64,000 nt of DNA, taken from NCBI RefSeq assembly GCF_011397635.1, contig NC_064761.1:36172143-36236142 (forward strand), written 5' to 3'. This stretch comes from Epinephelus fuscoguttatus (taxonomy: Eukaryota > Chordata > Actinopteri > Perciformes > Serranidae). The position numbers and the translations under genes were made by a program. Below the pieces are notes generated by a model. It did not search any database. It had not been told where the DNA came from and saw only the letters and a list, made by a program, of their open reading frames with translations. This document shows positions 697-63,580 of the stretch, one piece after another. Numbering within the stretch: position 1 is the first letter of the stretch; each line of letters starts with the position of its first letter.

Positions 697-3600
697 TGAG
701 AGCAATTTCTTTGAGTGCTTAAAAGCCACTGAGGTGGCCAAGGATATCCGTGACAACGAGAGACATGGGCGTGCCACCATTGAGATGATTGAAGAAGGCA
801 GTGAGCCAGAAGCTGTCATTGAGGTGAGCTTTTTTTCTAACTTTAAAACGTGAACAGCTTTATTCAGGACACCACTGGCTTTGGCTGCTCCGAAGGATGT
901 AAATGAAATGTTGCAATCTGTGTGCATGTCTTTATTTATAGGTGCTTGGACCCAAGCCTGATCTCCCATCGTGTGAGGATGAGAAAAAGGCAGGCATTTA
1001 ATGAATTACTGTGGACAAATGTTACATTATCTAAAGGATTCAGATGATAAATGTAAATGTGTTGATCATCTCTCCACTTTCTAGTGTGATGAAACTGCTG
1101 ATAGAAAGAACAAAAAGACGGCAACTCTCTATTTGGTAAATATGTGCAAATATTAAGGTTTTAAATTAATTACTGTAGATAAATGTCTCAGTATGCAAAG
1201 GATTGAGATGATAATGATGATAATCATCTCTCTACTTTCTAGATTTCTGATGCTGCTGGCTCCATGAAGACAACTGAGGTGGCTAAGGAAACCCCTTTCA
1301 AACAAGACATGCTCTCTCAAAATGAATGCTACATCTTGTACAATGAAGGAGACAAAAACCTATTTGTCTGGAAAGGTATTACACCATGACATCTATCCAT
1401 TTCTGCAACCTCTTCTTAGCTGCATACACCCTATGTTTATCAGTGCTCAGCTGGCTTATTGCTTATTGTTGTTAGTCAGCACAAATGGGAAAATGTGTAA
1501 ATTTGACCAAAGTTTGTAGTCTCTAACCACTGTAGCACTCCCCAAACTGCAGGTAAGGATGCAAATGCAGATGAGCGCAAAGAAGCACTGAATAGGGCAA
1601 ACAAATTCATCAAAGACAACAACTGCGACCCACATACTAAGGTAATGAGGCCATGTAGTGAAAGTCTGACACCAGAGCTTCGTTCTTTCTAGCTTGTTTT
1701 TCTGTTTATGAATATGCTCACTCCTCTTTCTGACACAAACAGATCCAGATTATGCCAGCAGGGGCTGAGACCTCCATTTTTAAACAGTTTTTCTTCAACT
1801 GGTTGGACAAAGATGAGACCACTGGCCCAAGTGAGGCCTACGTGGAGAATAGAATCGCGAAGGTGGAGCAGATTCCCTTCGACGCCTCCAAACTCCACAG
1901 CAACAAATGCATGGCTGCCCAGCACCGTATGGTGGATGATGGCTCTGGGAAAACGGAGGTATGCTTCACTAGCCTGACAAAGCTCATGTTGTATTTTCAT
2001 CTCCTCAGATATCAACATGTATGTGTGACAATTGTGGCTGTCTGTAGATTTGGCGTGTGGAAGGAGGTGACAAAAAACCTGTGGATAAATCCACGTATGG
2101 ACAGTTCTTTGGAGGTGACTGTTACCTTGTGCTGTATACCTACAAAGATGGAGGCAGAGAGAAGTTTATCATCTACACCTGGTGAGTGCAACCTTCAAAT
2201 CAATTTGTTATCCAGGAGCTTCACTGACAGTTGATTGAACCAGTGTACCTCTTCTTTGTGAATATAAACACTGATTTAGCTTGAATGAGTTAAGAAAAAG
2301 ATGGCACGGTTGTCTGGTGGTTAGCACTGTCGCCTCACAGCAAGAGGGTTCCTGGTTCGATCCCGGTTGTGGGAGCCCTTCTGTGTGGAGTTTGCATGTT
2401 CTCCCCATGTCAGCGTGGGTTTTCTCCGGGTACTCCGGCTTCCTCCCACAGTCCAAAGACATGCAGATTGGGGACAGGTTAATTGGTAACTCTAAATTGT
2501 CCGTAGGTGTGAATGTGAGTGTGAATGGTTGTCTGTCTCTATGTGTCAGCCCTGTGATAGTCTGGTGACCTGTCATGGGTGTGCCCTGCCTCTCGCCCAA
2601 TGTCAGCTGGGATAGGCTCCAGCCCCCCCGCGACCCTCAAGAGGATAAGCAGTTAGACAATGGATGGAGTTAAGAATACATTTTGGCTTTCCTGTCTTCA
2701 GGCAAGGGCAGAAGTGCTCTAAGGATGAACTGGGTGCTTCAGCCATTCTCACCATCCAACTGGACGATTCCATGGGAGGAAAAGCTACCCAGGTAAGATA
2801 TTTACTGTGAAAACAAGCTATGATGTCACTCAGGTTTTTCTTGATAGGAATAGTTGGAAATCAAAGTACGCTTACTTGGTGAGAGATGATGATAAGATCA
2901 ATACAAGTCTCATATCTGTGCTTTAAAGTTAGATGTGGGGACAGCTACCAGTTAGCTTTGCATAAAGACTGGAAACAGAGGGAAACAGCTAATCTGGTGT
3001 TAATTAGTGATCTTAGGGGGTGCCGGCAGGTTGATCTTGTTATCTTTGGACAGCATTGTTGGATTACTGAACATGCCTATTGGGCACAGCCCCAGGGCCC
3101 CAAAGTGTAAAGGGCCCCCTTGGCCTTTACCTGTAAAATGTCAATCAAATTAACACACACTGACCAGGAAGAGACACAAAAAGACCAAGAAAAGATGCAA
3201 AACAAACACTGAGAGACACAAAATGACTCAAGGGAGACTCCAAATGACCAAAAAAGACACAAAATGGCCATAAAGAGACAGAAAATGATCTTAAAGGGAG
3301 ACATAAAATTACCTCAAAGAGACACAAAAGTACATACAAAAGGGGCAAAATGACCAAAAAGAGACAGAAAATGACCTTAAAGAGATTTAAAAAAAACAAA
3401 CAAAAAACCCTAAAACATCCATAAAGTTACCTCTTACAAGTAGACACAAAATAACTACACGTGGGGCAAAACAACAAAAAAGAGACACTGATCTCAAAGA
3501 GACACAAAATAACTACAAAAAGGGGCAAAACAACATGCCTACCAGGCACAGGCACAGGTAAGATGTACTGACCACAAAGAGACACAGTAAGACCACAAAG

Positions 3601-6600
3601 ACAAAACAACCACAAAGAGACACAAAATGACTACAGAGGGACACAAAACAACCACAAAGAGATATGAAATGACTAAAGAAAACTCAAAATTACCTAAAAC
3701 CCACAAATTTGTCTTCAAAAAGACACAAAATAACCACAAAAAGCAGCAAAACAACCAAAAATAGTCACAAAGCGACCCAAGAAAGAAACAAGAGGATCTC
3801 AAAGAGACACAAAGTGACTACAGAAAGACACAAAATGACCAAAAAGAGACACAAAACGACTACAAAGAGACAGAAAATGACCAAAGAAGATTCAAAATGA
3901 TCTTAAAGAGACATAAAATCACTACACAATGGGGCAAAACAACCAAAAAGAGATATGAAATGATTTCAGAAAACTCAAAAAAACACCCACAAACTGATCT
4001 TGTAGAGACACGAAATAAGTACAAAAAGTGGCAAAACAACCAAAAAGAGTCACAAAACGACCCAAGAAAGAAACATGAGGACCTCAAAGAGACACAAAAG
4101 ACCTCAAAGAGACACAAAAGACCAAAAAGAGACATAAAAGACCTCAAAGAGATACAAGAGGATCTCAAAGAGACAGAAAATGATGATTATGATTTTTATG
4201 ATTAAATTAAACTACACAATGGGCCAAAAAGAGATATGAAATGATTTCAGAAAACTCAAAATTACCTAAAACCCACAAATTGATCTTGTAGAGACACGAA
4301 ATAAGTACAAAAAGCGGCAAAACAACCAAAAAGAGTCACAAAACAACCCAAGAAAGAAACATGAGGACCTCAAAGAGACAAAACACCAAAAAGGGACACA
4401 AAAGACCTCAAAGAGACACGAAAGTCCTCAAAGAGATACAAAAGACCAAAAAGAGACACAAAAGACCTCAAAGAGATACAAAAGACAAAAAAGGGACACA
4501 AAAGACCAAAAAGAGACACAAAGGACCAAAAAAAGGGACACAAAAGACCTCAAAGAGACACAAAAGACCAAAAAGAGACACAAAAGACCTCAAAGAAATA
4601 CAAAATAAATACAGAAAATGGCTTCAACAAAAAAGCTGTGGCTAAATCACCACAAAGTGTGTTTCCAGTCTTATGTGGGAGTGAGAGGGTGGGGCCTTTC
4701 TGTGCCCAGGGGCCCATTGTCTCATAATCCACACATGTTGAACAGAGCCTGGCTGTTTCCCCAGTTTCCAGTTTATATGCTATACAGAGCTAATTGGCTG
4801 CTGGCTGTAGCTTCACATTGAGCAGACAGACATGAGAGTGGTATTGATCTTCTCATCTAACTCTCAGCAAGAAAGCAAGTAAACATGTTTCCCAGAATAT
4901 CAAAATACTTCTTTAATGACTTACTCCTGCCATTTAAGCACAGGGTGAGTCTTATCACCCCTGTCCTCATTATACATGTAGGCTGAGCTACTGCTTTGTC
5001 TTGGCAGGTTTGTGTCCCTCAGGGTCAAGAACCACCTCATCTTGTGAGTATGTTTAAGGACCCTTTGATCGTTTACCTGGGTGGGACAGGCCGCCACGAC
5101 CAAGAGAGCAAGCCCAACAGCACACGTCTCTTCCACATCCGCCAGAGCTCCAACAAAAGCACACGGGCTGTTGAGGTCAGCCTTGTTTATTACATTGGAC
5201 GTGCATGAATGTATTGCTCTATAATGAGCGATTCACACCATTGTCTCGATCTTTGTGTCTCACTCACCCAGGTGGAGCCCAAAGCCTCCTCTCTGAACAC
5301 TAACGATGCGTTTGTGCTGAAGGAGGGTAATTCTGTGTACATATGGAAGGGAAAGGGAGCAACTCAGGAAGAGATGACTGCAGCTAACTATGTTGTCAGC
5401 GTGCTTGCAAAAGGCAAGACAGCAAAAGTGGTGGAGGAGACTGAAGAGCCAGGTGAGTGCTGAAAAAGGAGCTTTGATCTCTGCTGAATAGCAGTGTAAA
5501 ACATTCCCTGTGAAAATCTATGGTTTTCTCCTCACTGCCAGATGATTTCTGGAAAGCACTGGGTGGAAAGGCAGAATACCAGACCTCCAAGACTCTGCAG
5601 AAGACTGTAAAGCCTCCACGACTGTTTGGCTGTTCAAACAAGACTGGCAACCTGATCGTAAGTATTTAGAGCCCTCTTCCTGCACAAAATCACCACTTAC
5701 ACCCGTTTTTTTTCTTTTTTTTTTAATATAACGATAAAGGTTGCAATCGGCATTCACACGTGGGTCAGATAACTCTGCAGTAGTCTTGTGTATCTATCAG
5801 CTCCAGCTGCGATCAGCTTTGACGGAAACACAACACCCAGGCGAACCAGCCAACGTGATGCAAAGACAGGTCACCACAAAATACCGTTCGTCTCCAAGCA
5901 GCACTTGAGCATCATTCCAAATTCAGTTTGAGAGAGAGTATAAAAGGTGGCCGGACGCTGTTATTGTTTGACAGCGCACAGGGGCGTCAGGGGGAAATGC
6001 AGCCAGGCAACAATGAAAGTTAAGACGGTGGAAGTCCAACTAGGGCAGGTAGGAGGGGTAGTGGATGGGTCCAACAACCATCGGCTTTCAGTGGTTGGTC
6101 AGTGTTCGCCAAACCCTGTTCTTTTTTCCTGAACCCAACCACATATGTGTGCTGGCTAAACGTAAGCACGTGTTTGTTGCTGAAGGGAAAAGAACGTTAA
6201 TTTGTAGTGTTGTGCGTGCTTTTATTTTGAAAGAGACTATATGCAAACTGTACATTTCCTGTGAAAATGTGTATTTCGAAAAATGACAATGCATGTAACA
6301 GGCAGAACTTGACAAGGTGTCTTGGAAGTTCAACAACATCGTACCTCAACGTGGAAAGTCCATGACCAAATGTCGACATGTGAAGTGGTCGGAGTGAGAA
6401 CGTGTTGTTGCTGCAGAGCCGTGTACACAGTTGTGGTCTACCGTCAGTGGGAAAGAAGTTTATTGCCTATTTCTAATGGGTTTTCCCTTTATTTAAAAAA
6501 CCTGTGTACAACCTGTGTACTGTGGAAAATGGGTATATGTTTTCATCCAAGCGACTGTTTTTTAAAGAGCGACTTTGTAAACATGTAGTTTTCAATCTTT

Positions 6601-16879: not shown

Positions 16880-17621
16880 CTCCGGCTTGAACACAAGATG
16901 GCGGTAAACACTAGCTGTGCCACATCAAACACCTCTCGGTTACACCGTACATCCGGCTCTTTGTTTGACGTTGGTTCCGGCTAAATTTAGCTAATGTGGC
17001 TCAGAATACAAAATTGTAAATGAACTGTTGGCAGCTTTAAGGTTGTTTGACATGTTTGGCTCATTTGGTCGATGCAGGGAAGAGTGACCCGCAGTGTCGT
17101 GGCGACTTCATTCAACTCGTCGTCTGTAGCCGGCCAACTATTTAGTTACATATGGCAGGGGGCAGCTCATTGTTAGCCTAGCTTTAGCCATGCTCTCTGC
17201 CTCCGCTTTCACTTGTCTTCTGGGTTGCGGCTTGCTTGCGACAGGGACCACGGCTACTTTTCCCAGTATTAACGTCTTTGTGTTTTCTTAATTGTGCTTG
17301 AGCCTTTATCAGGCCTTGAATTTCCTGTCACATTCCGCGTAACAGCGGTGGTCTGCGGAAACTGCACCTCGTTTGTTTCAGCACGTAAAACTCGCTGTTA
17401 GCTTAGTTAGCAAGCTAGCCAACCAACCGGCTAACTTTGAGGAAACGTCTTTCTGTCTTGATGACATTTAAATTGATGTTGCCTTGTCTCGGGCAGAACG
17501 TCAAACTCCACTAACTTAAAAACACCTGTCGCCGTCTGCTGTAACGTTGTTCTTTACCACTGAGTCAAGAACCGGAGCTATCATTTATTTTTTTGTGGTT
17601 TGTGGTCATTTGCCTGCCACG
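16880..17621 (+). promoter_or_regulatory. dr1 promoter / 5' UTR region
   Basis: GC-richer than its surroundings, with many CpGs and no TATA box, as for a housekeeping gene. ACAAGATGGCGG (16893-16904) is a YY1-type motif, often found near start sites. The exact start site cannot be placed. The codon frame upstream of the dr1 ATG is open back to 17547. Confidence 0.4.
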
Positions 17622-20600
17622 ATGGCTTCTTCCTCTGGAAACGACGACGACCTCACCATCCCCAGAGCAGCTATCAACAAGATGATTAAAGAAACTCTCC
17701 CTAACGTACGAGTGGCTAACGACGCCAGGGAGCTGGTGGTTAACTGCTGCACAGAGTTCATACACCTCATATCCTCAGAAGCCAATGAAATATGCAACAA
17801 GTCCGACAAGAAGACCATATCTCCTGAGCATGTCATCAACGGTGAGTCCTTTGCTCCCAGGGTCCTATGTTCCCCTCTCAATATGACACATTAAGGAGAC
17901 TTTTCATGGGGTTTTATGTTCTCAGCAATGTTTTCCCCTTGGCCAAACGTTTCCCTTTGTCAGTATGTTGAAATCACCCACCTTATAGCAGCTTATACTT
18001 TACTGATCATGTCTTTAAATTCGCCGGCAAGACATAAGACAATTTTCTCGTCTTCAAACATTGATATCTCCACAGTGGCTGAATGGATTTCTTGTATTCA
18101 AACTGAATTTGAAACGACCACATCCCTTTGGTTTTTTTGCAGTTTGAACTGCAAAGATAGCCCTCACCAATCTTTTCCAATGTAAGTTTATGTCAACACA
18201 CACGCCCAATTAGACCAACTCAAAACAGAGGAAGAGCACCTTTGAGAGGAAGTAGCGCTTGAATGGTCCAACATTTCAGCTTGGTATGAAAGTGTGAGTC
18301 TCATCCCTTAAACCATAATTTGAAGCTCAATGTAGGACCCATTGAGCTTTGGATTGCCAGAGAAACACAGGGATGACCCCTCTGGTCCATATTTCTACAG
18401 CAATGAGCTATTGAGGGATACAGGCAGGGGTGTGCCCCTCCTGCTGTCATCAATTTCAAACCACAGACAGTAATTATTTCACTCTCACTTCTTGTTTTCA
18501 TAACAAAGCCCTCGAGAGCCTTGGTTTCGCATCATACATCACAGAGGTGAAAGACGTTCTCCAGGAGTGTAAAACTGTCGCTCTGAAGAGGAGGAAGGCC
18601 AGCTCTCGACTGGAGAACCTGGGTATACCCGAGGAAGAGCTCCTCAGACAACAACAGGAATTATTTGCCAAGGTATGATCTGAAAATATGACCAGATATA
18701 CAGTTTATAATGTAGTAATGGTGTTGATGAGTACCCACATTTAAACAAAAAGAGATTAATAAGTAAAATGTACCTCAAATAAGAGAGAGATAGCAATGAG
18801 AGGAGGTGTCATGATGGCTAAAAGTATCGTGAAAGAGAAGTCTGAGCGAGTATAGGTATTTTAACTGTAGTGTAATATGTGAACATGATTTGTGAAAGAG
18901 GTTGAAGCAGTCAGATACTGTGTGTTTACTGAATTGAGAAATGCTTTCACTTTCATAGTATGTATGAAAGTGAAAGCAGTATGAAAACTTGCTAACTAAG
19001 CAGACTCTATTCTAATAATTAATATTATTTGAAGCTAAGCTATTAGCATCCTCCACAGTATGCCACCCTTATTACACTGCACACCTGGAGATATATGGGA
19101 CAGATTCCTTTGCAACTTGCTGTGATTTAAATGTAACACAAGCAGAAACTGGCAGAAAGTAATGCTGTGTACATATTTGCTAGAAGTAAGGAGTGTCCCT
19201 GTGTCAGTGTCACAATATTGTGGTGTCTTTGTACAGCGGTTCTGTAGATAGGTATGTAAGGGTCTTGTCTCAGGTGAGGTGCACCTCTTCAGAAATGTGA
19301 GTACATTTCTTGTTCTTGTTTTGTATGCAGGAGCAGATACAAAACAAACAAGACTAATTAAGTCCGTTTTTATCACCAATTCAGTTAAATTCAGTAGAAC
19401 TTTATTTATCCCGAAGGAAATTCTTGTGCCAGAGAATGCTTCAGATTACAGTAACCACAATTTTACATTCACAACCACTAACAACCAGATTACCAGTGGG
19501 TTCCTTGGGTCAGAGTCACTGACTTGGCCCAGTTTTTATAACAACAGACTATTAAATATCTGGCAAAATATACAAGATAGAAGTGTTTCAAGCAGCAAAA
19601 ACAAACCAGTGCCTAATAGAGTAACAGTAAGAGTAAGACAAGTACATGAGTTACTAAAAATGAACTGAAATGGTGGGAAAAGCAGCCTGCTCCTGATAAT
19701 CAGTGTCATACTGAATATGATAAAACATTGCACAAGATATTAAGAAATAGTAATATACATCATGTAAAGTAAATGTGCACCTAATGTAGGTGAATATTGC
19801 TGTCACTGTCCTTTGTTCCAGCTCTCCTCCCTACAGAAGGGGGAGAATTATACAGTTTGATGGCCACAGGTAGAAAAGATCTCCTGTTGTGCTCCTCAGT
19901 GGTCTCAGTCTGCGCACCACAGAACGCCACAGGTTATTTTTTTCTACCTGTGGCCATAAAAGTTATCTCAGGATACTTTTCACATAAACCAGGACTAGCA
20001 GCATACTTTTTAATTTAATTTAATTTACAGAGACCCCATAGTTCCTCCATGAGCAAGCTCTTGGTGACGGCGTCGAGGAAAGACTTCATGCCCATAGGAG
20101 GGCAACCATCTGCCTCGACAGCTTGATCTTTAATCTTAAAGACTAAACACATTTTAGAAAAATGTAACTTAGATGTTGTGATCTACCAAAGCTGTTTCCA
20201 GTACAGACTGTTTCCTCCTCAGCTGCGTCCTCAGAGTAAATGGGAGAAGATGTCTGCTTTGTGCATATTAAAAATGCAGAACATTGTCTAATAATGCATG
20301 CTATTAAATGATCTTGCAGCAGTGGTGTGCTAATCAATACATCTTTGCAACGACTAATATATACAAATTCAGCCTCAGTATTGTACTGCAAAAAAATATT
20401 GTGAGCATTTTTCTTTTGTCTAATGTATATAGTAGAATAACATCTTTACGGGTCAAAAACACTGACATGTTTGAGATCTATTTTAACATCAGATATCACC
20501 ATCATGATCCGTTTATAATCACCTAATAAGCTCTTTATTCGCCTTCCTTGTCTCATCTCTCTGTTTCGGTTCGACTGTGTTCCTGCAGGCGCGGCAGCAG

Positions 20601-31109: not shown

Positions 31110-31755
31110 GCATTCACACTGGCGCTTTTTGGTCCGCTTTAAACGAACCCTGGTCCGCTTCAACAGATAGTCCGGTTCATTTGGAGTGGTGTGAACGCTC
31201 ATTCAAACTCTGGTGCGCATCAAACGAGTGAACCCTGGTCCGCTTGAAAACTGGGGGTCTCGGTTCACTTACAGTGGGAAATGCAAACGGACTATCCGGC
31301 GAACCAAAGAGAGGAAGTGAACCAAAGAGAGGAAGTAATGTAGAGAGCAGTTCATTTTGGGTAGAAAAAAACCCCAAAGCCAACAGCGTGAACCGAGCGA
31401 AGCAGAGGTAAAAACGTAAAAACAGAAACCCCAAGGCTGCGTAAATTGTTGCTCCATTGTTTTTGTGGTGACCAAGCCGACTGAAAGGGATGGATTTCCG
31501 TTTTCGGTCCTGGCCGATCAATGAGCCGGGTTTTCTTCTTCCTCATGCTTTTTTTTCTTCCTGGTCAGAGGTCATTTCTGGCAATACCACCCCCAAACGA
31601 GCAGCTGTTGTAACTGCGTGACATTGTTAAGGCAGTTTGGTCCGCTTTAAAAAGTGCAGTGTGAAAGTGAACCGAACCAAATGAAGGTGTGAAATTTTTC
31701 GGCATTCTCAGCCCAATCGAACCGAGTCCCCCGGACTATCGTGGTGTGAATGCAC
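31110..31755. mobile_element. TGCATTCACAC-type TIR element, copy 1
   Basis: Left GCATTCACACTGGCGCTTTT; reverse complement of the right end GGTGCATTCACACCACGATA. Many internal TGGTCCGCTTTAAA / GAACCCTGGTCCGCTT repeats. It aligns along its length with 58711-59283. Confidence 0.8.
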
Positions 31756-31926
31756 CCTTAATCCTCCCCACTGCTCCTTCAAGCAGGACTTTGATATATA
31801 CACATTTTGACAGCAGTGTTGTTTTATGCTGCGTTTGGCTTCATAGGAGACGTCTTCTACTCTTACACTTAAAGGCTCTGATGTAGTTGTTGTTTGCTAG
31901 CTAGACTCCCAGGCGTTCCCTTAACA

Positions 31927-33055
31927 TCGTAGCAGCTGTGGCTCAGGAGATAGAGCAGGTTGTCCGCTAATTCCAAGAAAGGTGGTTCAATTTCCGGCTT
32001 CAGGATGCATTTTGAAGTGTCCTTGGGCAAGCTACTGGACCTCAAGCGGACCTCAGTTTAACTGAGTAGCAGGTAGGGGTGTGCCATATCATCTTCTTCA
32101 AAATCATACCAGCGTCGTATCATGATACTCACAATACTTTGACTTGTTGACATATTGATGTCATACTGTTACCGACAGCAACGACAAGAACGGCTGAAAG
32201 CAAAATTATCACAGACTCTGCAGTAGTTTAAAAAAGAGGAGCAGCTTCAGTAATGTGGAATAAACTGTGGCGTTCTAAATGTTTTATGAACAGCCCCGGA
32301 CTTCTCAGACTCTTTTAGCGACTTAGAGATCAGAGGGAACTCATTCAGCGGCTCCTCTGGCAGCAGCACAGCGTCTCTCTCTTTCTCCTCTCTCGCGCTG
32401 CGCTACACGGGAGTCGATGTTGTCAAGTGATTTTTGTCATAAACCTTTGGTAATGTAAACCTATCTGAAAAAGCTACATATATGTGAATGTGCAATAGTT
32501 GTGGTATCATAACAGCCTGTTGCAGGTTACAGCGTGATGATTAGAGGAGAAATGGCAGAGCATAAAGGTGCAGGTGGAAAAAAAAAACAACTCAGTCTTG
32601 TAGGATTTTGCTAAAAGAAGGAAATCACCTGTTGATTTATATATGTAGATCCCAGGGGACATTTTTTGTATTTGAGAGCTGTTTAAATGTGTAATTTGTG
32701 GTAGATTTTATTTAGTTGAACTATTAATATTGTATACAGAATCTGAATCTCACTTTGAGTTACTGTTGTTCACAAACTAAAGAAATAAGAGATCATTTTT
32801 GTTTAGTTTTTACTGAATATTTGAAGCAAACTATAAAACTATATCACTTATTTTGTTGTAATTCTATGTCCTTAAATTAATAATAAAATATTTGTTTTAC
32901 TATTTTTTTTTGTATTGTTAAGGATAGCATTATATCGCAGAAATGGTATGGTAGCCTCGACCCCCAGTGTATGAATGCGACAAGTTGTGTAAAAGGTGCT
33001 TTGAGTGGTTGAAAAGATGAGAAAGGCAGATACAAGTGCAGGTCGATTATCATAA
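31927..33055 (+). repeat. tRNA-derived SINE, interrupted by a DNA transposon
   Basis: The 5' part (31927-32076) has tRNA-like head words (GTGGCTCAGGAGATAGAGC; GGTGGTTCAATTTCCGG) and the fish SINE body AAGTGTCCTTGGGCAAGCTA. The 3' part (32956-33055) continues with TAGCCTCGACCCCCAGTGTA, TGAATGCG and GTGCTTTGAGTGGTTGAAAA. The two halves join naturally if 32077-32955 is removed. Confidence 0.75.
32077..32955. mobile_element. DNA transposon inserted in a SINE
   Basis: It begins GGGGTGTGCCATATCATCTT. Internal words GACTTCTCAGACTCTTTTAG and TCTGGCAGCAGCACAGCGTC recur at 56695-56997. The right end as seen (ATATCGCAGAAATGG) seems to lack the ACCCACCCCTA end of the other copy. Confidence 0.65.
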
Positions 33056-36290: not shown

Positions 36291-37024
36291 TGAGCTTTAG
36301 ACTGTTGGTCCAACAAGACTAACTTTTGATGTCACTTTTGGCTGTGGGAATTTTTGGGATTTTTTATTTTTTATTTTGACATTTTCTCAATTTAAAAAAA
36401 ACAAAAATCAACTAAATAATCAAAAATGAAATAATCTCTAGTTTAGGTTTCAAACGAGTGTCCTGCAGTCCACAGCACAAACTGAAATACATTTGCATGT
36501 AAATGATTTCCTCCTTTTAAGAGTAGATTAAGCCATCTTTTAAATTTAAATACAACATTTTATTTACCAGGTTAAGGAGTTTGTTTTTACAGAAAGTTAA
36601 AATTCATCACTCCAGGAGTGAGAAGCTTTTGTTGCCCCTTGTTTATTTCATTGTCGGAGGACACCATTAATGTCTACATCTCGCTGTTACGAGCATGGGC
36701 TCTAGCCCATGAGTAGATGCACACTTCCTTCTGCATGGCGATACAATTGGCGGTCCAGTAGAAAGAAAATAGTTCCTACATGAAACTGCTCACAGTGAGG
36801 TCTGTGCATTATCTTGAGTAACCAGATCATGATTTCTGGAAAGAGACATTGCTGTTGAGTTTTTCAAAAGTATTGTCCATTAGACCGGGGAGAAGGCAGA
36901 CATCTCTACGGCTGATATCTCCAACACTCAGCAACTCACACCAAAACAATCTAGATTGATAAATAGCTCAACAGGTAAATGGGAAAATATGTGTTTTTGA
37001 TTTTGGGGTGAACTGTCCCTTTAA

Positions 37025-40996: not shown

Positions 40997-42108
40997 TTAA
41001 AGGGATAGTGCACCCAAAAACGAAAATTCAGCCATTATCTACTCGCCCATATGCCGATGGAGGCCCTGGTGAAGTTTTAGAGTCCTCACATCCCTTGCGG
41101 AGATCAGCGGGGGGAGCAGCCAGCACACTTAATGGCAGAGGGCGCCCCAGACTAACGTCCAAGAACACGAAATTGAATCCACAGAGTACCTCCATACTGC
41201 TCATCCGTTGTGATCCAAGTGTGCTGCAGCCGCGACATAAAAAGTTGTTTAGAAAAATGTCATATGAACTGTTTTTAGCCTCACTGTAGCCTGTAGCTCT
41301 GACTGCTTCAGAGTGAAAGCGTGAGCTTTGCTCACCCATGTTTACATCACGTGATGCGTGCACCGCAGGGGAAAACAACGGTAACCACAGAGCTAAAAGA
41401 TTATTTGCACTACGGCCTTTTAGCAAAGGACAGCCCAACATGTCTGAAGACTTTGAAACTGAGGAGGAACAGCATTTCTTTGAGCCGTATTTGTTTGAGC
41501 CCGAGTATACGGACGGAACTCAGGCTACTGGACGAAGCAGCCGCCACAGCTCATGAGCCTAACCCTCAGCCAGCCAGCCGCTGAATACTGAGCCGAGTCG
41601 AGCACTGGAAACCTGATGGTGTAGTTGTTTCAAATGCAAAGCAATGCCAACGGATGAGGAAAGTCTTTGTTGCTCAGACTGGGAATTGGCAATGCGTGCA
41701 CTTGAGAATCTGGACATCAGTACTGACGAGACTGCTGCTCTTCAGAGATCACGATCACTCTGAGCACGCACACGTGAATGCGGAGCACAGAGAAGCAGTC
41801 AGAGCTACAGGCTACAGTGAGACTAAAAACAGAGTTCATATGACGTTTTTTGAAACAACTTTTTATGTCGGGGCTGCAGCACACTTGGATCACTACGGAT
41901 GAACAGTATGGAGATACTTTGTGGATTCAATTTTGTGTTCTTGGACGTTAGTCTGGGGCACCGTATGCCATTAGGTGTGCTGGCCGCTTCCCCCCCGCCA
42001 ATCTCCGCAAGGGATTTGAGGACTCTAAAACTTCACCAGGGCTTCCATCAACATGTGGGTGAGTAGATAATGGCTGAATTTTCATTTTTGGGTGCACTAT
42101 CCCTTTAA
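40997..42108. mobile_element. Foldback transposon carrying a P2X7-ballast-like ORF
   Basis: Arms of about 240 bp or more: left TTAAAGGGATAGTGCACCCA; the right arm ends with its inverse, TGGGTGCACTATCCCTTTAA in part (TTGGGTGCACTATCCCTTT). Further matched words are CAGCCATTATCTACTC / GAGTAGATAATGGCTG and GTGCTGCAGCCGCGACATAA opposite a TTTATGTCGGGGCTGCAGC stretch. The unique core between the arms holds the decayed ORF. Confidence 0.85.
41440..41755 (+). pseudogene. Frameshifted P2X7-ballast-like cysteine-rich protein remnant
   Basis: It starts MSEDFETEEEQHFFEPYLFE and continues EPEYTDG. A shift then moves the frame to ELRLLDEAAATAHEPNP, which stops at TGA. Back in the first frame, after another stop, comes WCSCFKCKAMPTDEESLCC followed by ENLDISTDETAAL. 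The W-C-x-C-x-x-C-x-x-M-P-T-x-x-E-x-x-C-C pattern is that of the zinc-binding C-terminal (ballast) domain of P2X7 and of the many fish proteins with this domain alone. It lacks the P2X channel part. Two frame changes and at least two stops make it a pseudogene. Confidence 0.6.
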
Positions 42109-48760: not shown

Positions 48761-50779
48761 CCTATCCATCTCATGTGTCATTTTGCCCTCACTCATGAAC
48801 AACACCCCAAAAGCAACACCCCATAAAAATGATACCTTCTTAACATCGGCATGTTAGCATGCTGACATTAGCAATTACCCCAAAGCTCAGCCTTGCAGAG
48901 CTGCCCCTGTTTATATCTTGTTTCAGTTCTTATCATTCTACATGCTGATGCAATGAGTGCTTCTGCATAGCAACAGCATGTCTGCTGGTCAAAACCTTGC
49001 TCATGGCTGCAGGGTCTTGACAATAAACACAGCATACTTTATCTGCTGCTGTGTCCATTTTGAGACACTCCTGTGCCACGTGTCTGCCAGACAAGAATTC
49101 CAGCCACCCTGATCTTTGCTGCAGGAGCCGTCCAGGGAATGTCGGCTTCCAGTTAACAAACATAAGGGTCTGGCAGTTAAGAGAGGAAGACCACGCAGCC
49201 ATCGGGATGTCACCCTGCCCAGAAAATCTGCCCAGCCACTGGTTGCATGCCTGGGATTCTTCTCTACAAGCTGCTCTTTCCTGCTTTGATTTTTTCTCTA
49301 AAACATTTTCTTCCACCAGACAGTGGCAAAGGAAATATTTTCCAGTCCAGGAATAAGTTGCTTTTAATTGCACTGCCTTGCGAGTATACACTTGGTGGTC
49401 TGTGCCGCTGTAAGAATGCGCCTTTGATTGATGTTCATTAGGGGCGAAACAGGGTGGTATGCTGCTCGGCATTGCAGCCGCGTTCCATTGGAGTTACACT
49501 GTTCTGAAAACAAACCGCCGCAACCGGCCCGCACATACTTTCCCTGTGAGATCCTGGTCGCTGCTTTGAATGAATACAGCATTATAATGCTGCAAAATAC
49601 ACAACTGAAAAAGGCTCTGTCATCATTTGAACTCTCTTCACCAGACTAGTTTGAATATCACGCTATGTAGGTCATTGTTGACTGAGGCAATGCACAGATT
49701 TGGTTTGGGAAGATGAGCTCCTCATTTTGGATGAGAAGCAAGTTAACATTGCATCAAACGACACACATCTGCCCTTTTAAGGAGCACACTTGTCTTGGTC
49801 CTTGTGATCTCATGACGGCATAAATGTTCTCACTCATGAATGATTTACTGCAGAGTGACAATGTGTATTCAAAAGTGTTCTATTTACCTCTAACAGTCAA
49901 ATCCTGTTCTGATAGCTTTTTTGTGAGAATAGCTGTTGAGTTTTACCACTAGATGATGACACTGCAGGTTACAAAACATGGCATGTGAGCAACAAAGACA
50001 CACCAGTTGATGTTAAAGTCATAAAGTCCTGAAAGAAATCCTGTGCTGGATTTCACTGTGGTAGCTGCTTTGCATGCAGACCTTACGAAATGCATATATA
50101 ACTTGCAGCAATCCTTTCTTGGAAATGAATACCTGTTGTGTTTTTTTTTTCCATGTCATTACACACATCACATCACGTGCTACTGAGCATGCTGCATACA
50201 TGCTGTCATGTGCACGAGAGGCAGCATGAGATGTAAACAGTAATGGCTGTAACATTAACTCGATGCACTTGGGTGTAGTTCAATAGAAAGAAAATAGTTC
50301 CTGCACCAAACTGCTCACAACAAGGTCTGTGGATTGTCATGATTTCAGTAGACAAAGTTAGCAACTAGCTAGTGAGCATGGTGGATTTATATAGTGGATC
50401 TATAATCTCAACATGTTTTGTATGTAAAATCTTAACCTGCAAATTAACTAGTAACTACAGCTGTAATATAAATTTAAGAGATAAATATTTCTGACTAAAA
50501 TATAAAAGTATAAACTGCCATGAAATATAAGTACTCAAGTAAAGTATCTCTATAGATCTGTAGACTAATGGTTTGGAAGAGCTCATGTTACATTATTAAG
50601 AGCTTGGTGGAAAAAATTATACCAAAGATAATATTGTTTATGTACAAAAACTTAAAATGTAAATGCGTTGGTCAACAAAAATTGCAGCATGCAAAATGTG
50701 CAGGTCAAAAACAACAGACAGAGAGACGCAGCAACTTCCAACTTCATTCAACATTTGAAGTTGCACAAAGAACGCTTAA
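48761..50779. other. No gene seen
   Basis: Contains a short copy (about 50277-50345) of words also found at 36755-36815 (AGAAAGAAAATAGTTCCT; AACTGCTCACA). No exon recognised. Confidence 0.4.
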
Positions 50780-56694: not shown

Positions 56695-56997
56695 GCCCCA
56701 GCCCCGGGCTTCTCAGACTCTTTTAGCGACTTACTGCTCAGAGGGAACTCAGTCAGCAGCTCCTCTGGCAGCAGCACAGCGTCTCTCCCTCTGCTCTCTT
56801 GCCGTGCACAAAAACTATAGAAATGAGATATCATTTTTTTTCATTTTTACTGAATATATGAAGGCAAACTGTAAACTATATAACTTATTTTGTTGCAATT
56901 CTGTGTTCTTTGTCATATTGTCAAGAATATCATTATCACAAAAATGCCCTGAAATATCATGACATTATTTAAGGGCCCTATTACCCACCCCTAAAAC
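56695..56997. repeat. Deleted second copy of the 32077-32955 transposon
   Basis: Shares GGGCTTCTCAGACTCTTTTA-type words, TCTGGCAGCAGCACAGCGTC, AACTTATTTTGTTGCAATTC and the right end TTACCCACCCCTA. The first third seen in the other copy is missing. Confidence 0.7.
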
Positions 56998-58710
56998 CAG
57001 GCAAATGTTTGGGGCCCCCAAAATAATTTGGGAAAAAGGGCCCCTGACAACCACACATACTGGCACATTTTACACTGACAACTATAAACCCTTTAAACCT
57101 CTGATAAAGGCACTATACAGTGCACCGCCACTGCCCCAAAAACCCTTAAGTGGGGCCCCTTCTAGCCACTGTATGACAGCTGGATACATTAGTTAGAACA
57201 GTCAGCTAGCTTCCTGTAACTGTCATACACACAATGTGAGGTGTAATTGCAACGAAATAGGGTCTTGATGGGCTTCTTTGCCTGGGGCCCCTCCCCCCAG
57301 AGTCTAGGATAGCCACTGATCCTTCTCATCTTTGGCTCTCTCATGCTCTGTGCCGTTGCCTGGCAAAGGTAGAGGTGTCAGCGGCCCAGAGGACAATGAT
57401 ATCTTCAGGTTCATAAAATGTCCCAGAATTCCTGAATATGTATATTACTACAGACATTGCTGTAACCTTACGTTACGCTGCTAATAGCTGGTCTGACCAG
57501 CTAGAGACTAGCGGGCGCGTCTACACACATACCGCCATCAGGCAAGGAAAGTACACCCTTCGGCACACAATGAACAACTGAAGGCAGCGCTTTTACATTA
57601 GTCATTGATTGTTTCTGTAAAGATGTGTGATTTATGTCAGAGTAACAACTGAAATATCTAAAATCTAAGATGATGTATAGTTTCATATCTCGATAACGAT
57701 AAAATATCTTAATATTGCCCAGCCCTGATGGCAAGCCGAAAATGTATAGACATATGGAAATGTCCAGAGGTGAAGGACTTCTGAAATCATTTGTAAAACT
57801 CTCTCTACAGCTGTTGATAAATTCATTCACTTGCTGTCACAAGTGCAGCTGCTACATGATGGCACCAATCTGGAACCCTCCCATATCATAAAAGTGACTC
57901 TGACTTGTCTTACGGCAGCTGAAGAGACTAAGACTAAGAGACTTTAGACTGAGACTAAAGAGGCTTCTTGCTTTGAGCTAATAACATCAGCATGCTCACA
58001 GTGACTGTGCTTAATGTTTAGCCTGTTAACACGCTAATTAGCACTAAATACAAAGTACAGGTTAGGCTGACTGGGGTGTCATTAGCTCTGCAGGAATTTG
58101 TTTATGAACATAGACTGCAAAAATAATGGATGTAGCCAGAGGGGGTTATGAGAGGGTGGAGGAGCAAGGGCTAGATCTGACGCATATGTCGTGACACCTC
58201 GAAGACAGCCTGTCAATCAAAGCGGCCACGCCCTAAATTATGCATCATTTAAGCTTTAATAAATTGTAAACTGGTGATATATAAAAGTGTACCACCTGTA
58301 CAGCTGTTACGAACCAGGCTGTAAACATGTTTATTTCTGTTGTAAAACTGAGAAACATTCCCCTGCAGAGCCAATGTTTTAGACGTGTGCATGTGCGGGT
58401 TTCAGAGCCAGCGTTTCGGACGTGCATGCAGTACTAGACTCTTAGTTTTATGTTGTACGGAAGGAGATTGTTAAATACATATTTCATGTCGTAGTTGTAA
58501 AATAACGTTAGCGTTCACAATTGCTTGTTTAAAGCGGAAGTACAAAACTTTTCCACTAGCTCGCCAGTTAACACTGTCTGCATGTCAACTCCTTAACCAT
58601 GTATCATTACAGAATATTGCAACTTCCACCACTGTTCATTTTAGGAGGACCACCGCGAGGAAACATGTTCTTTGTTTAAATCATCAAATGGGCGGTGGAT
58701 CATTGGACAG
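56998..58710. other. Repeat-like but unassigned
   Basis: Includes a GGGGCCCC-rich stretch (57011-57300) and a GATAACGATAAAATATC...GCCCAGCCCTG end (57690-57726) that look like element ends. No gene. Confidence 0.35.
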
Positions 58711-59283
58711 ATTCACACTGGTGCTATTTGGTCCACTTTAAACAAACCCTGGTCCACTTCCACGGATAGTTTGATTCATTTGGAGTGGTGTGAATGCTCA
58801 TTCGAACTCTGGTGCGGACCAAATGAACAAACCCTGATCCGCTTGAAAACTGGGGGTCTCGGTTCACTTGCAAGTGAACCCTGGTGCGATTCGCTTACAG
58901 TGGGAAATGCAGACGGACTATCCAGTTAACCATAGAGCAGAAGTGAACCAAAGAGAACAAGTGACGTAGAGCGCATTGCATTTTGGTGTTTTTGTGGTGA
59001 CCAAGCCAGCTGTGGCGGATGGATTTCCGTTTTTGGTCCTGGTCAATCAATGAGCCGGATTTTCTTCTTCCTCATGCTTTTTCCTTCCTGGTTAGTGGTC
59101 GGTTCGGGCAATACTGCCCCCAAACAAGCAGCTGTTGCAACTGCGTGACATTGTCCAGGCGGTTTGGTCTGCTTTAAAAAGTGCAGTATGAAATTGAACC
59201 GAACCTAATGAAGGTGTGAAATTTTTCGGCATTCCCCGCCCAATCAAACCGAGTCCCCCGGACTATCCTGGTGTGAATGCGCC
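58711..59283. mobile_element. TGCATTCACAC-type TIR element, copy 2
   Basis: Aligns with 31110-31755. Shared words are TGGTCCACTTTAAACAAACC (TGGTCCGCTTTAAACGAACC in copy 1), TTTGGAGTGGTGTGAA, AAACTGGGGGTCTCGGTTCA and GAGTCCCCCGGACTATC. Copy 2 lacks about 70 bp near 58980 that copy 1 has. Confidence 0.8.
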
Positions 59284-61765
59284 CATAGATACTTGTTAGC
59301 TAGCTGACAAGTTGTCTATTTCCACTTTGAAATCTCAGTTATAAACATTGCCACCTGTTGATACTTTAACTTGGATTAGTGATAAAATGGATGGTGCTGA
59401 GAATCAAGTCTGTCCATCTGAAAGACAGGGGCATGAGACCCCTGGGGGAAAATAAGAAAAGTGGCCTCTAAACACCTAAGCAGCCTCCAGCAAACCTTGA
59501 TTGGTTGTCTGTTAATTGTCTGCGGATTTAAAAAACAAACACGCCTTCTTGCAGTGGTCCTTCTAAAATGAGCAAGTTACTATATTCTGTTATGATCAAG
59601 GAGCTGATATGCAGACACCAGCTAGCATTAGCATAGCTAGGTAATTGAAATGTTGACCACTCCCATTACTGTGAGGGGATTGGCGGAATTAAAATCTGAT
59701 ACGTTTTTGTTAGTCAGGGGATTGTGCACTTCTGATCAGCCACGTCAAAAAAAAAAAATGGCTGACAGATACACTGCCCTCTCAAGCTCACGCATGCGCA
59801 CGTCTAAAATACTGACTCTTTGGCTCTGTGGGGGACGAAATTGGTAAAAACTGGGCATTTTAACATGGAGGTCTATGGGACTTGTTTTCAGAACCAGCCT
59901 CAAGTGGCCATTTGAGGAACTGCAGTCTTTGGCACTTCTGCATTGGCTTCATTCTTCAACCTCGGAGGCTGCCGCTTGGTCACAAACCAAAGTTTTTATC
60001 TGCTGATGCGGCTGAAGATTCACGAGTTCTTACAATTCATCCCGATGGGAACAAGAATCTGTGGAACACACTTCATGGCCATGCATCCAATAGCTATTGA
60101 GACATTTCAAAGTGAGTGATCCCCATGCAACAGGTTTGCATGATAACCCCCCGCCCACATTCATCTGTATGACAGCACTTACATGTAATAAAAGCAGCTG
60201 GTGGCACACTGTGTTGCATCTGTCCTTCCAGATTTAACTCCAGACACGGTGGAGCATTTTCTCTGTGGCGGCTTTTCATTTCTTCTGTCTGTGTGTCAAA
60301 TCAAAGCAATGTCTACAGTTTTTGGAAAACAATCAAAGCAGAGAAACTCGTGAGTGTTATAGAAGAGAGCAGCACCTGGTTCAATGCTTTTTAGCTGCTT
60401 CTCTGCTATTGACTTCCAAGTACATTAAAGAAAACTTCAAAGAGAGCCCTAATCCGTGCATGTTACTCACTATACCTCTTTGCAGGGTGTGTGTGAAGAT
60501 AGATGAATTTATTTCTCAGGGAATCAGAAGCACATTACTCAAAGCTTTGAACTTTTCAAATGGCTGTGACCGTCTGCAGGTTGCGCGACCAGACACACAC
60601 ACTCACACACGCTCAAAGGAACCTGTTTTTCCGCACATGGGTCCCAGGTGGGAAGAAAGGACAGGATGACAGAAACTGGAGTGAGACTCTGTTGTCCCAC
60701 AGCTGACCTCACCTTAAGCAAAGGTGTTGCATGCCACTGCAGCGCTTAGGAGAGACGCTGGAGCCCAGAGAGAAACTCACAGCATGTGACTCAACAGTTT
60801 GGAACCCTCACCTCCTGTTGTAGTCTGAAGCGCAAACACCAACGCCTCCTATGACTTTTCATGTCGGCTCACTTCACACAGAAGATCTTCAAAGCTTTTT
60901 GGATAGCACCCTTGACGCCTTTAAAAGCTGTCACCATCAAAGCTTGTAATCGATGATGTTCGTGCAGATTGGAATGTTATTGCGTTAGTCATACAGTTTG
61001 TCTCCACCAAACTCATAAGTGTGTGTTTGTTTCTCTCAGGGAAGCCTCTGTCTCTTTCCTCTGCACGCCTGGCTGGACAGTCTGGCTCCCAGATAGCATC
61101 AGGCTGCCTGAGATTAGCGCTCATGAGGGTGCAGTTAAACTTGTAAAAGCTCTGGACTCCTGTCCCGCTGCCTCTGTTCTACACAATGCCAAATAGCAAT
61201 CGTGAGTGTGGCATGACACTGATAGCTCGTCTGCATTGTCACCGTGCCTCTCAAATGTGCCTAAGCCTCAGAGCTTATTGCAGAGGCAGCCACAGATCCC
61301 GACCCAGGAGCAGGCTGTGGGGCCTGCCGGTGTTGTTGCCAGGCAGTTTAGCTGTGTAACAGACAGATAATGCTCAGCGTCCCGTGGCCCAACATTTTTG
61401 GGAACTGGAGAGCTGATAACTAATCATTTAGGCTGCAGCGCCCTGCCTGCCTTCTGTTTATCAGACACTTACTAACACCTCTGTAATCTGTGAGCAAAGT
61501 GCACCTTGGTTTGTTTGGACTGTGTTTCATTTCACTAGAAATGTCATAAATGCAAGTTTATGTTTCCCTTCACTGCTGAGGAGATATGTCAGATAGAAGT
61601 GGAACACAGTTCATTGCATTCATGGGTTCACATTTGTTTCAAGTCTGTCTAGTCTTGTAGTTCTTGTTTGCTCTATTTGTTCCATGTCAGTCTTTCCTTG
61701 GTGCAAAAATGCATTCTAGCATTCAGACAAAGTGAATATGAGCCTTCTGTAGTTTGGGTTGATTA
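59284..61765. other. No gene or clear repeat seen
   Basis: About 2.5 kb. The part 60100-61650 has even composition and no transposon marks, so it may be constrained non-coding sequence, but I cannot show conservation. Confidence 0.35.
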
Positions 61766-63472: not shown

Positions 63473-63580
63473 CCCACTGAGCAAGCAATGTCTGTGGACG
63501 TCCAAGTCTAGTTGATATCATGTCCACAGATGTGATATCAACTAGACTTGGACATCCACAGACGTTGCTTGCTCAGTGGG
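63473..63580. repeat. Long hairpin, 48-bp arms with 2 mismatches
   Basis: Left arm 63473-63520 (CCCACTGAGCAAGCAATGTC...), loop 63521-63532 (TGTCCACAGATG), right arm 63533-63580. Only two positions differ. No similarity to the other elements was noticed. Confidence 0.95.

Follow-up and report, generated by a model that had tools for sequence, protein, structure and literature searches.

A link between the P2X7 ballast domain and transposons is already known and was printed in 2022 by Kojima and Bao (PMC9587614). According to that paper, Kolobok transposons create TTAA duplications and have RR/YY ends. In its account, KolX in the Kol0 lineage adopts the ballast fold, a P2X4-like gene fused with KolX to give rise to P2X7, and nanor is likely a domesticated KolX. 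The ballast domain had been described across animals by Rump et al. 2020 (PMC7016195), in whose excerpted text the string 'transpos' has 0 occurrences. Another relevant group is the Xenopus T2-MITEs, which parts of a 2018 paper (PMC6004289) treat as presumably non-autonomous Kolobok elements. Among the papers listed by searches of an open-licence library, none is titled on the fold-back family described here. We conclude that this family is non-autonomous and belongs to Kolobok; it is new, but its kind is already known, which makes it a well-documented example and no discovery.

The window analysed is a stretch of 64,000 nucleotides from Epinephelus fuscoguttatus (NC_064761.1). It contains a fold-back element at 40997..42108 (+ strand) that is a member of a non-autonomous family whose consensus measures 1153 bp. 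The left arm (41001..41309, + strand) starts AGGGATAGTGCACCC and, counting TTAA, is 343 bp long in the consensus; the right arm (41792..42104, - strand) is its inverted repeat at 91%. The arms of the window copy, each of ~310 bp, are 91.2% complementary across 317 columns from end to end, and are made up of three inverted pairs (118, 168 and 41 nt) with a complementarity of 90-98% that span 40997-41309 and 42108 back to 41792. The element begins with TTAAAGGGATAGTGCACCC and closes with its exact reverse complement; an exact occurrence at both ends was found 0 times in 100 shuffles. TTAA is present at 40997-41000 and 42105-42108, and is read as the target site adjoining the AGGGATAGTGCACCC terminal repeat. 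After TTAA, the termini of both the window copy and the consensus are 5'-AG...CT-3', an instance of 5'-RR...YY-3'. Another end resembling these, TTAAAGGGACAGTTCACCC, lies on the - strand at window 36995-37024. Near it, a 65-bp stretch (36753-36817) is repeated at 50278-50342 with 83% identity.

The ballast signature WCSCFKCKAMPTDEESLCC is located between these arms, at 41617-41673 (+ strand), as the first-pass annotation had claimed. It belongs to a damaged KolX exon 1 remnant (41440..41763, + strand) that runs from MSEDFE to TAALQRSRSL and then a stop. The ATG at 41440 starts MSEDFETEEEQHFFEPYLFEPEYTD, and the same frame, three stops later, gives WCSCFKCKAMPTDEESLCCSDWELAMRALENLDISTDETAALQRSRSL; these are the three in-frame stops between the ATG and the end of the remnant. 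A read-through of 107 aa, with X at the stops, matches the Pfam family P2RX7_C (PF20478) with E 6.8e-4 and 20 bits, and the last 48 aa alone give E 0.067. The curated cut-off of P2RX7_C, 23.5 bits, is missed by the window remnant (20), by the consensus reading (19) and by the exon of a longer sister copy, L081 (16). A search of the PDB with the remnant returned one match, unrelated, at E 1.5. A second profile was built from ballast sequences of the same genome; its 17 members were selected out of 29 loci with a regular expression that describes the signature, and it therefore leans towards that signature. Among 1693 stop-to-stop frames of the window, each of at least 25 aa, the frame at 41617-41760 ranks first with E 1.2e-7 and 28.9 bits, and the runner-up reaches 11.6. 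After local shuffling of the window, 20 replicates reached top scores of 4.8-10.7 bits. A chance cysteine pattern, the first objection foreseen in the annotation, is rejected by this difference. The signature of the window copy keeps five cysteines, and the consensus has a sixth. The ballast motif in the window is real, but it is a damaged fragment. What remains is an N-terminal exon and not a complete domain. The annotation's statement that the element carries a ballast-like gene therefore holds for a motif inside a multi-copy mobile element but not for a gene, as the motif belongs to a damaged first exon. An intact KolX gene inside the element was rejected for the window copy and for the consensus because of stops and a frame shift, with the caveat of an open chimeric frame that is described below.

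The element is highly repeated. In the searched genome (1,046,998,120 bases in 26 contigs), the element search gave 2149 candidates. Scoring was applied to 40 of them, and the best 30, the window copy among them, were cut out. These 30 are the copies nearest to the window copy, and their spread and age are unrepresentative of the family. Once oriented and aligned, they show 95.3-97.7% identity to the 1153-bp majority consensus, in which the arms form a perfect inverted repeat of 343 bp (100% complementary). TTAA is found at both ends in 27 of the 30, and L023, L027 and L035 each lack one end. The 60 flanks, of 200 bp each, gave four partial matches of 27-115 columns and no common insertion point. 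A 32-base core pattern allowing at most three mismatches has 585 genome matches (262 + 323), a figure that counts core-pattern matches and not whole fold-backs; the reversed control has 0. The 100 matches listed are all exact. These 585 matches reject a single retro-copy insertion, the other objection that the annotation had raised against itself. Together with the TTAA ends of 27 of the 30 copies, they support a multi-copy mobile element; the accompanying target duplication is not separately shown, since TTAA is palindromic and the copies alone cannot tell a duplication from a palindromic end. Outside this genome, the arm pattern is present in 0 contigs of the viral collection and in one contig, L001, of the bacterial collection. 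None of the 76 and 557 pattern stretches from a 48-aa search of other collections was confirmed. A degenerate DNA pattern for the ballast motif occurs in four viral contigs (L002-L005), where a rough estimate predicts a few by chance.

A longer sister form of the element identifies the sequence between the arms. A 21-base pattern that extends beyond the truncation point of the short form has nine exact matches, and five of these regions were read (L079-L083). L081 is about 1.32 kb long, L080 is 1.43 kb, and L082, with an internal loss, is 1.16 kb; in the matches fetched, L079 and L083 each lack one end. The inverted right arm extends to consensus position 364 in L081 and to 433 in the other four (L079, L080, L082, L083). 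All five regions have TDAELRLL in frame, at the place where two bases are missing in the short form. L081 is open from MSEDFEIEEEQHFFVEPYLFEPEYTDAELRLL via WRCSCFKCKAMPTDEESLCC to PCITDHPEFPALLTRGVLETFFYFPKINWKKRQRPAGPDGRLSEE, that is, from MSED to GRLSEE. L083 has one stop, and L079, L080 and L082 are frame-shifted, each at a different place, L082 also being without a start. Directly past the exon end, at equal distance, GTAAGT is present in all five. The exon of L081 and an exon of a ballast gene at L084 (G000:C2) share 50% identity along 92 aa. The L084 exon likewise ends before GTAAGT, the C-terminal ballast exon comes next, and TTAAAGGG precedes the exon frame by 442 bases. Against P2RX7_C, exon 1 of L084 alone gives E 0.056 and 13.8 bits, below the cut-off, and exon 2 gives E 1.8e-8 and 35 bits, above it; the two exons joined by hand reach E 7.2e-11 and 42.8 bits, also above it. 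Judged from these sequences, the passenger of the fold-back element is the first exon of KolX, an accessory gene of Kolobok transposons. KolX carriage, a feature of the Kol0 lineage, is found in part: the short form has an exon-1 remnant, the long form has exon 1 up to the splice donor, and the C-terminal exon is absent in both. A search with the end of KolX exon 1 gave 490 candidate places, and the 150 that were scored fell into 24 at no less than 76% identity and 126 at 49-70%. The latter possibly represent another high-copy family with the same exon.

The resemblance to the Kol0 lineage, as described in excerpts (PMC9587614), involves the TTAA target, the 5'-AG termini and the KolX ballast exon. 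In contrast to that lineage, the fold-back element has neither transposase nor C-terminal KolX exon, and both of its ends are copies of one end. It shares with the Xenopus T2-MITEs a non-autonomous nature, a TTAA target, terminal AGGRR and presumed mobilisation by Kolobok, according to the excerpted account of the latter (PMC6004289); the 343-bp arms and the KolX exon remnant may set the present family apart. The W-C-x-C-x-x-C ... C-C signature is common to the element, the C-terminal ballast domain of P2X7 and nanor, but unlike these proteins the element holds only the N-terminal part, and that part is damaged. It is highly probable that the family is a non-autonomous fold-back derivative of Kolobok, of a long-TIR, MITE-like type, that carries a KolX remnant as a passenger and is multiplied in trans. 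The anatomy suggests how it may have formed. The left end of a Kolobok, comprising the terminal repeat, the 5' leader and KolX exon 1, would have been inverted onto itself, and the inversion would have removed the transposase entirely, along with all of KolX beyond exon 1. The product would be a hairpin with two copies of one transposase-binding end around the exon-1 remnant, which a Kolobok transposase presumably multiplied in trans at TTAA sites. We infer both the parent element and the mobilising transposase, because no autonomous Kolobok with a AGGGATAGTGCACCC end is present in the regions fetched.

Kolobok-type elements with KolX do exist in this genome. A search with P2RX7_C finds 82 matches, 30 of which were cut out with 1.5-kb flanks. 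The strongest, L036 on C6 (216 bits, with a weaker match 2.3 kb away), is read from its ballast match as a candidate P2X7 gene. L067, L068 and L069 are copies of one another that agree at 91-95% along 3.7-4.1 kb. Each has its KolX pieces on one strand, and the opposite strand carries a transposase-like gene; L067 and L068 start TTAA|AGGTGAC. The zinc-ribbon piece of the L067 transposase has 25 genome matches. Pfam names no transposase family for the transposase pieces, and we take the matches to be of Kolobok type from their pairing with KolX, their TTAA/AGG ends and their motifs. A ballast match lies within 10 kb of 16 of the 25 matches and of none of the other nine, compared with a chance expectation of about 0.0016 per transposase match. 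The arrangement is tail to tail in all 16 pairs, which amount to 15 loci as two are pieces of one copy. The query came from L067, a locus chosen for its KolX, and six of the 16 pairs belong to L067's own family (87-100% identity); outside that family, 10 of 19 matches pair. A profile of eight ballast proteins of this genome, P2X7 omitted, finds four distinct P2X7 sequences in the PDB with E 8.8e-23 to 4e-21. The single-frame ballast ORFs L037, L039 and L055 have long shared flanks, in the manner of repeats.

The suggestion of the first-pass annotation that stand-alone ballast genes belong to transposons is thus upheld by the 16 paired transposase matches, but not for this particular element, whose arms are missing from the 1.5-kb flanks of all 29 non-P2X7 loci sampled from the 82 ballast matches. 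The fold-back element itself has no transposase. Among the fetched KolX and transposase regions, the AGGGATAGTGCACCC end is seen in none outside the fold-back copies, and an autonomous partner was not found there; such a parent may have died out, diverged too far or escaped scoring. A related but incomplete left end, 85% over 330 columns, lies at L036:2685-3006, on the downstream side of the ballast exon at a distance of about 0.7 kb, and its place beside the candidate P2X7 gene is probably a coincidence. These observations bear on whether the passenger was inherited from a Kolobok ancestor or was captured by the element from a stand-alone ballast gene of the host, as in transduplication. The many ballast matches in the genome, none of the 29 sampled non-P2X7 ones with these arms within 1.5 kb, and the failure to find a parent with these ends in the regions fetched are what capture would lead one to expect. 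However, the ATG of the remnant lies near the left end, the long form reaches the splice donor just as L084 does, and Kolobok ends together with KolX are a native arrangement. Capture is accordingly judged unlikely.

The annotation had asked for copies with an intact ORF. The window copy is not one of them, given its three stops, and the MSED frame is open in three of the 30 copies (L008, L028 and L029). The MSED and WCSC frames differ in the consensus, and the ATG-to-WWC length modulo 3 is 1 in 24 copies, 0 in four and 2 in two. The signature frame that holds the core is open across the whole remnant in 20 of the 30. The consensus has a chimeric frame of 194 codons that includes the signature, the first part being out of the KolX frame; read from its ATG, this frame extends to the signature in 12 of the 30 copies and has the consensus length in six. 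Non-CpG substitutions at codon positions 1, 2 and 3 amount to 1.20, 2.64 and 1.37% before the shift and to 1.43, 1.32 and 1.19% after it, and an excess of third-position substitutions is absent from the remnant in the 30 copies. The left arm, read in an arbitrary phase, has 3.36, 1.84 and 2.07%. Divergence of the remnant after the shift, at about 1.2-1.4%, is below that of the left arm (1.8-3.4%), a difference that lacks a firm explanation. Passenger status is most likely for the KolX remnant: compared with the longer sister, the short form is missing two bases and all of the sequence beyond DHPE, and there is no codon-position signal. The open chimeric frame slightly lowers confidence in the fold-back Kolobok explanation and slightly raises it for a regulatory role.

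Such a role could take a general form, in which fold-back Kolobok families keep KolX exon 1 as a self-targeting regulator selected at the level of the element. We regard this as improbable; if it were true, the 126 exon-1-like matches at 49-70% would represent further families of this kind. For the present family, the hairpin may have been kept by its action on the parent, a fold-back transcript or a short remnant or chimeric protein repressing Kolobok or its KolX. The perfect 343-bp arms of the consensus, the KolX sequence retained in the loop, the low divergence of the remnant relative to the left arm and the signature-bearing frame open in 20 copies are in keeping with repression. The lack of a codon-position signal, and the separation of the KolX N terminus and the signature into different consensus frames, speak against it and make it very improbable. 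Equally improbable is that the element is a piggyBac, likewise a TTAA user with, according to the excerpted text of PMC9587614, KolX-like proteins in a few families, but by the same source the AG...CT purine-purine termini follow the Kolobok rule rather than the piggyBac terminus, and the piggyBac proteins lack most of the seven cysteines, of which the window copy keeps five and the consensus six.

The fold-back Kolobok explanation places the family within a published framework. The claim that the P2X7 ballast domain is the Kolobok gene KolX is confirmed within one genome and counted against chance, and a fold-back family carrying KolX pieces is added to it. A caution also follows for annotation: in genomes of this sort, a predicted 'P2X7-like' gene that stands alone can be a transposon gene or what is left of one.

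The window has other features. A repeated element is present in two copies, at 31112-32873 and 56699-59287, in pieces at 81-90% identity. A tandem repeat with a period of about 20-21 bp occupies 3146-4646. An open frame at 17520-17894 encodes what we take to resemble the histone-fold protein DR1/NC2-beta. A short hairpin at 63473-63580 has 48-nt arms that are 96% complementary and a 12-nt loop.
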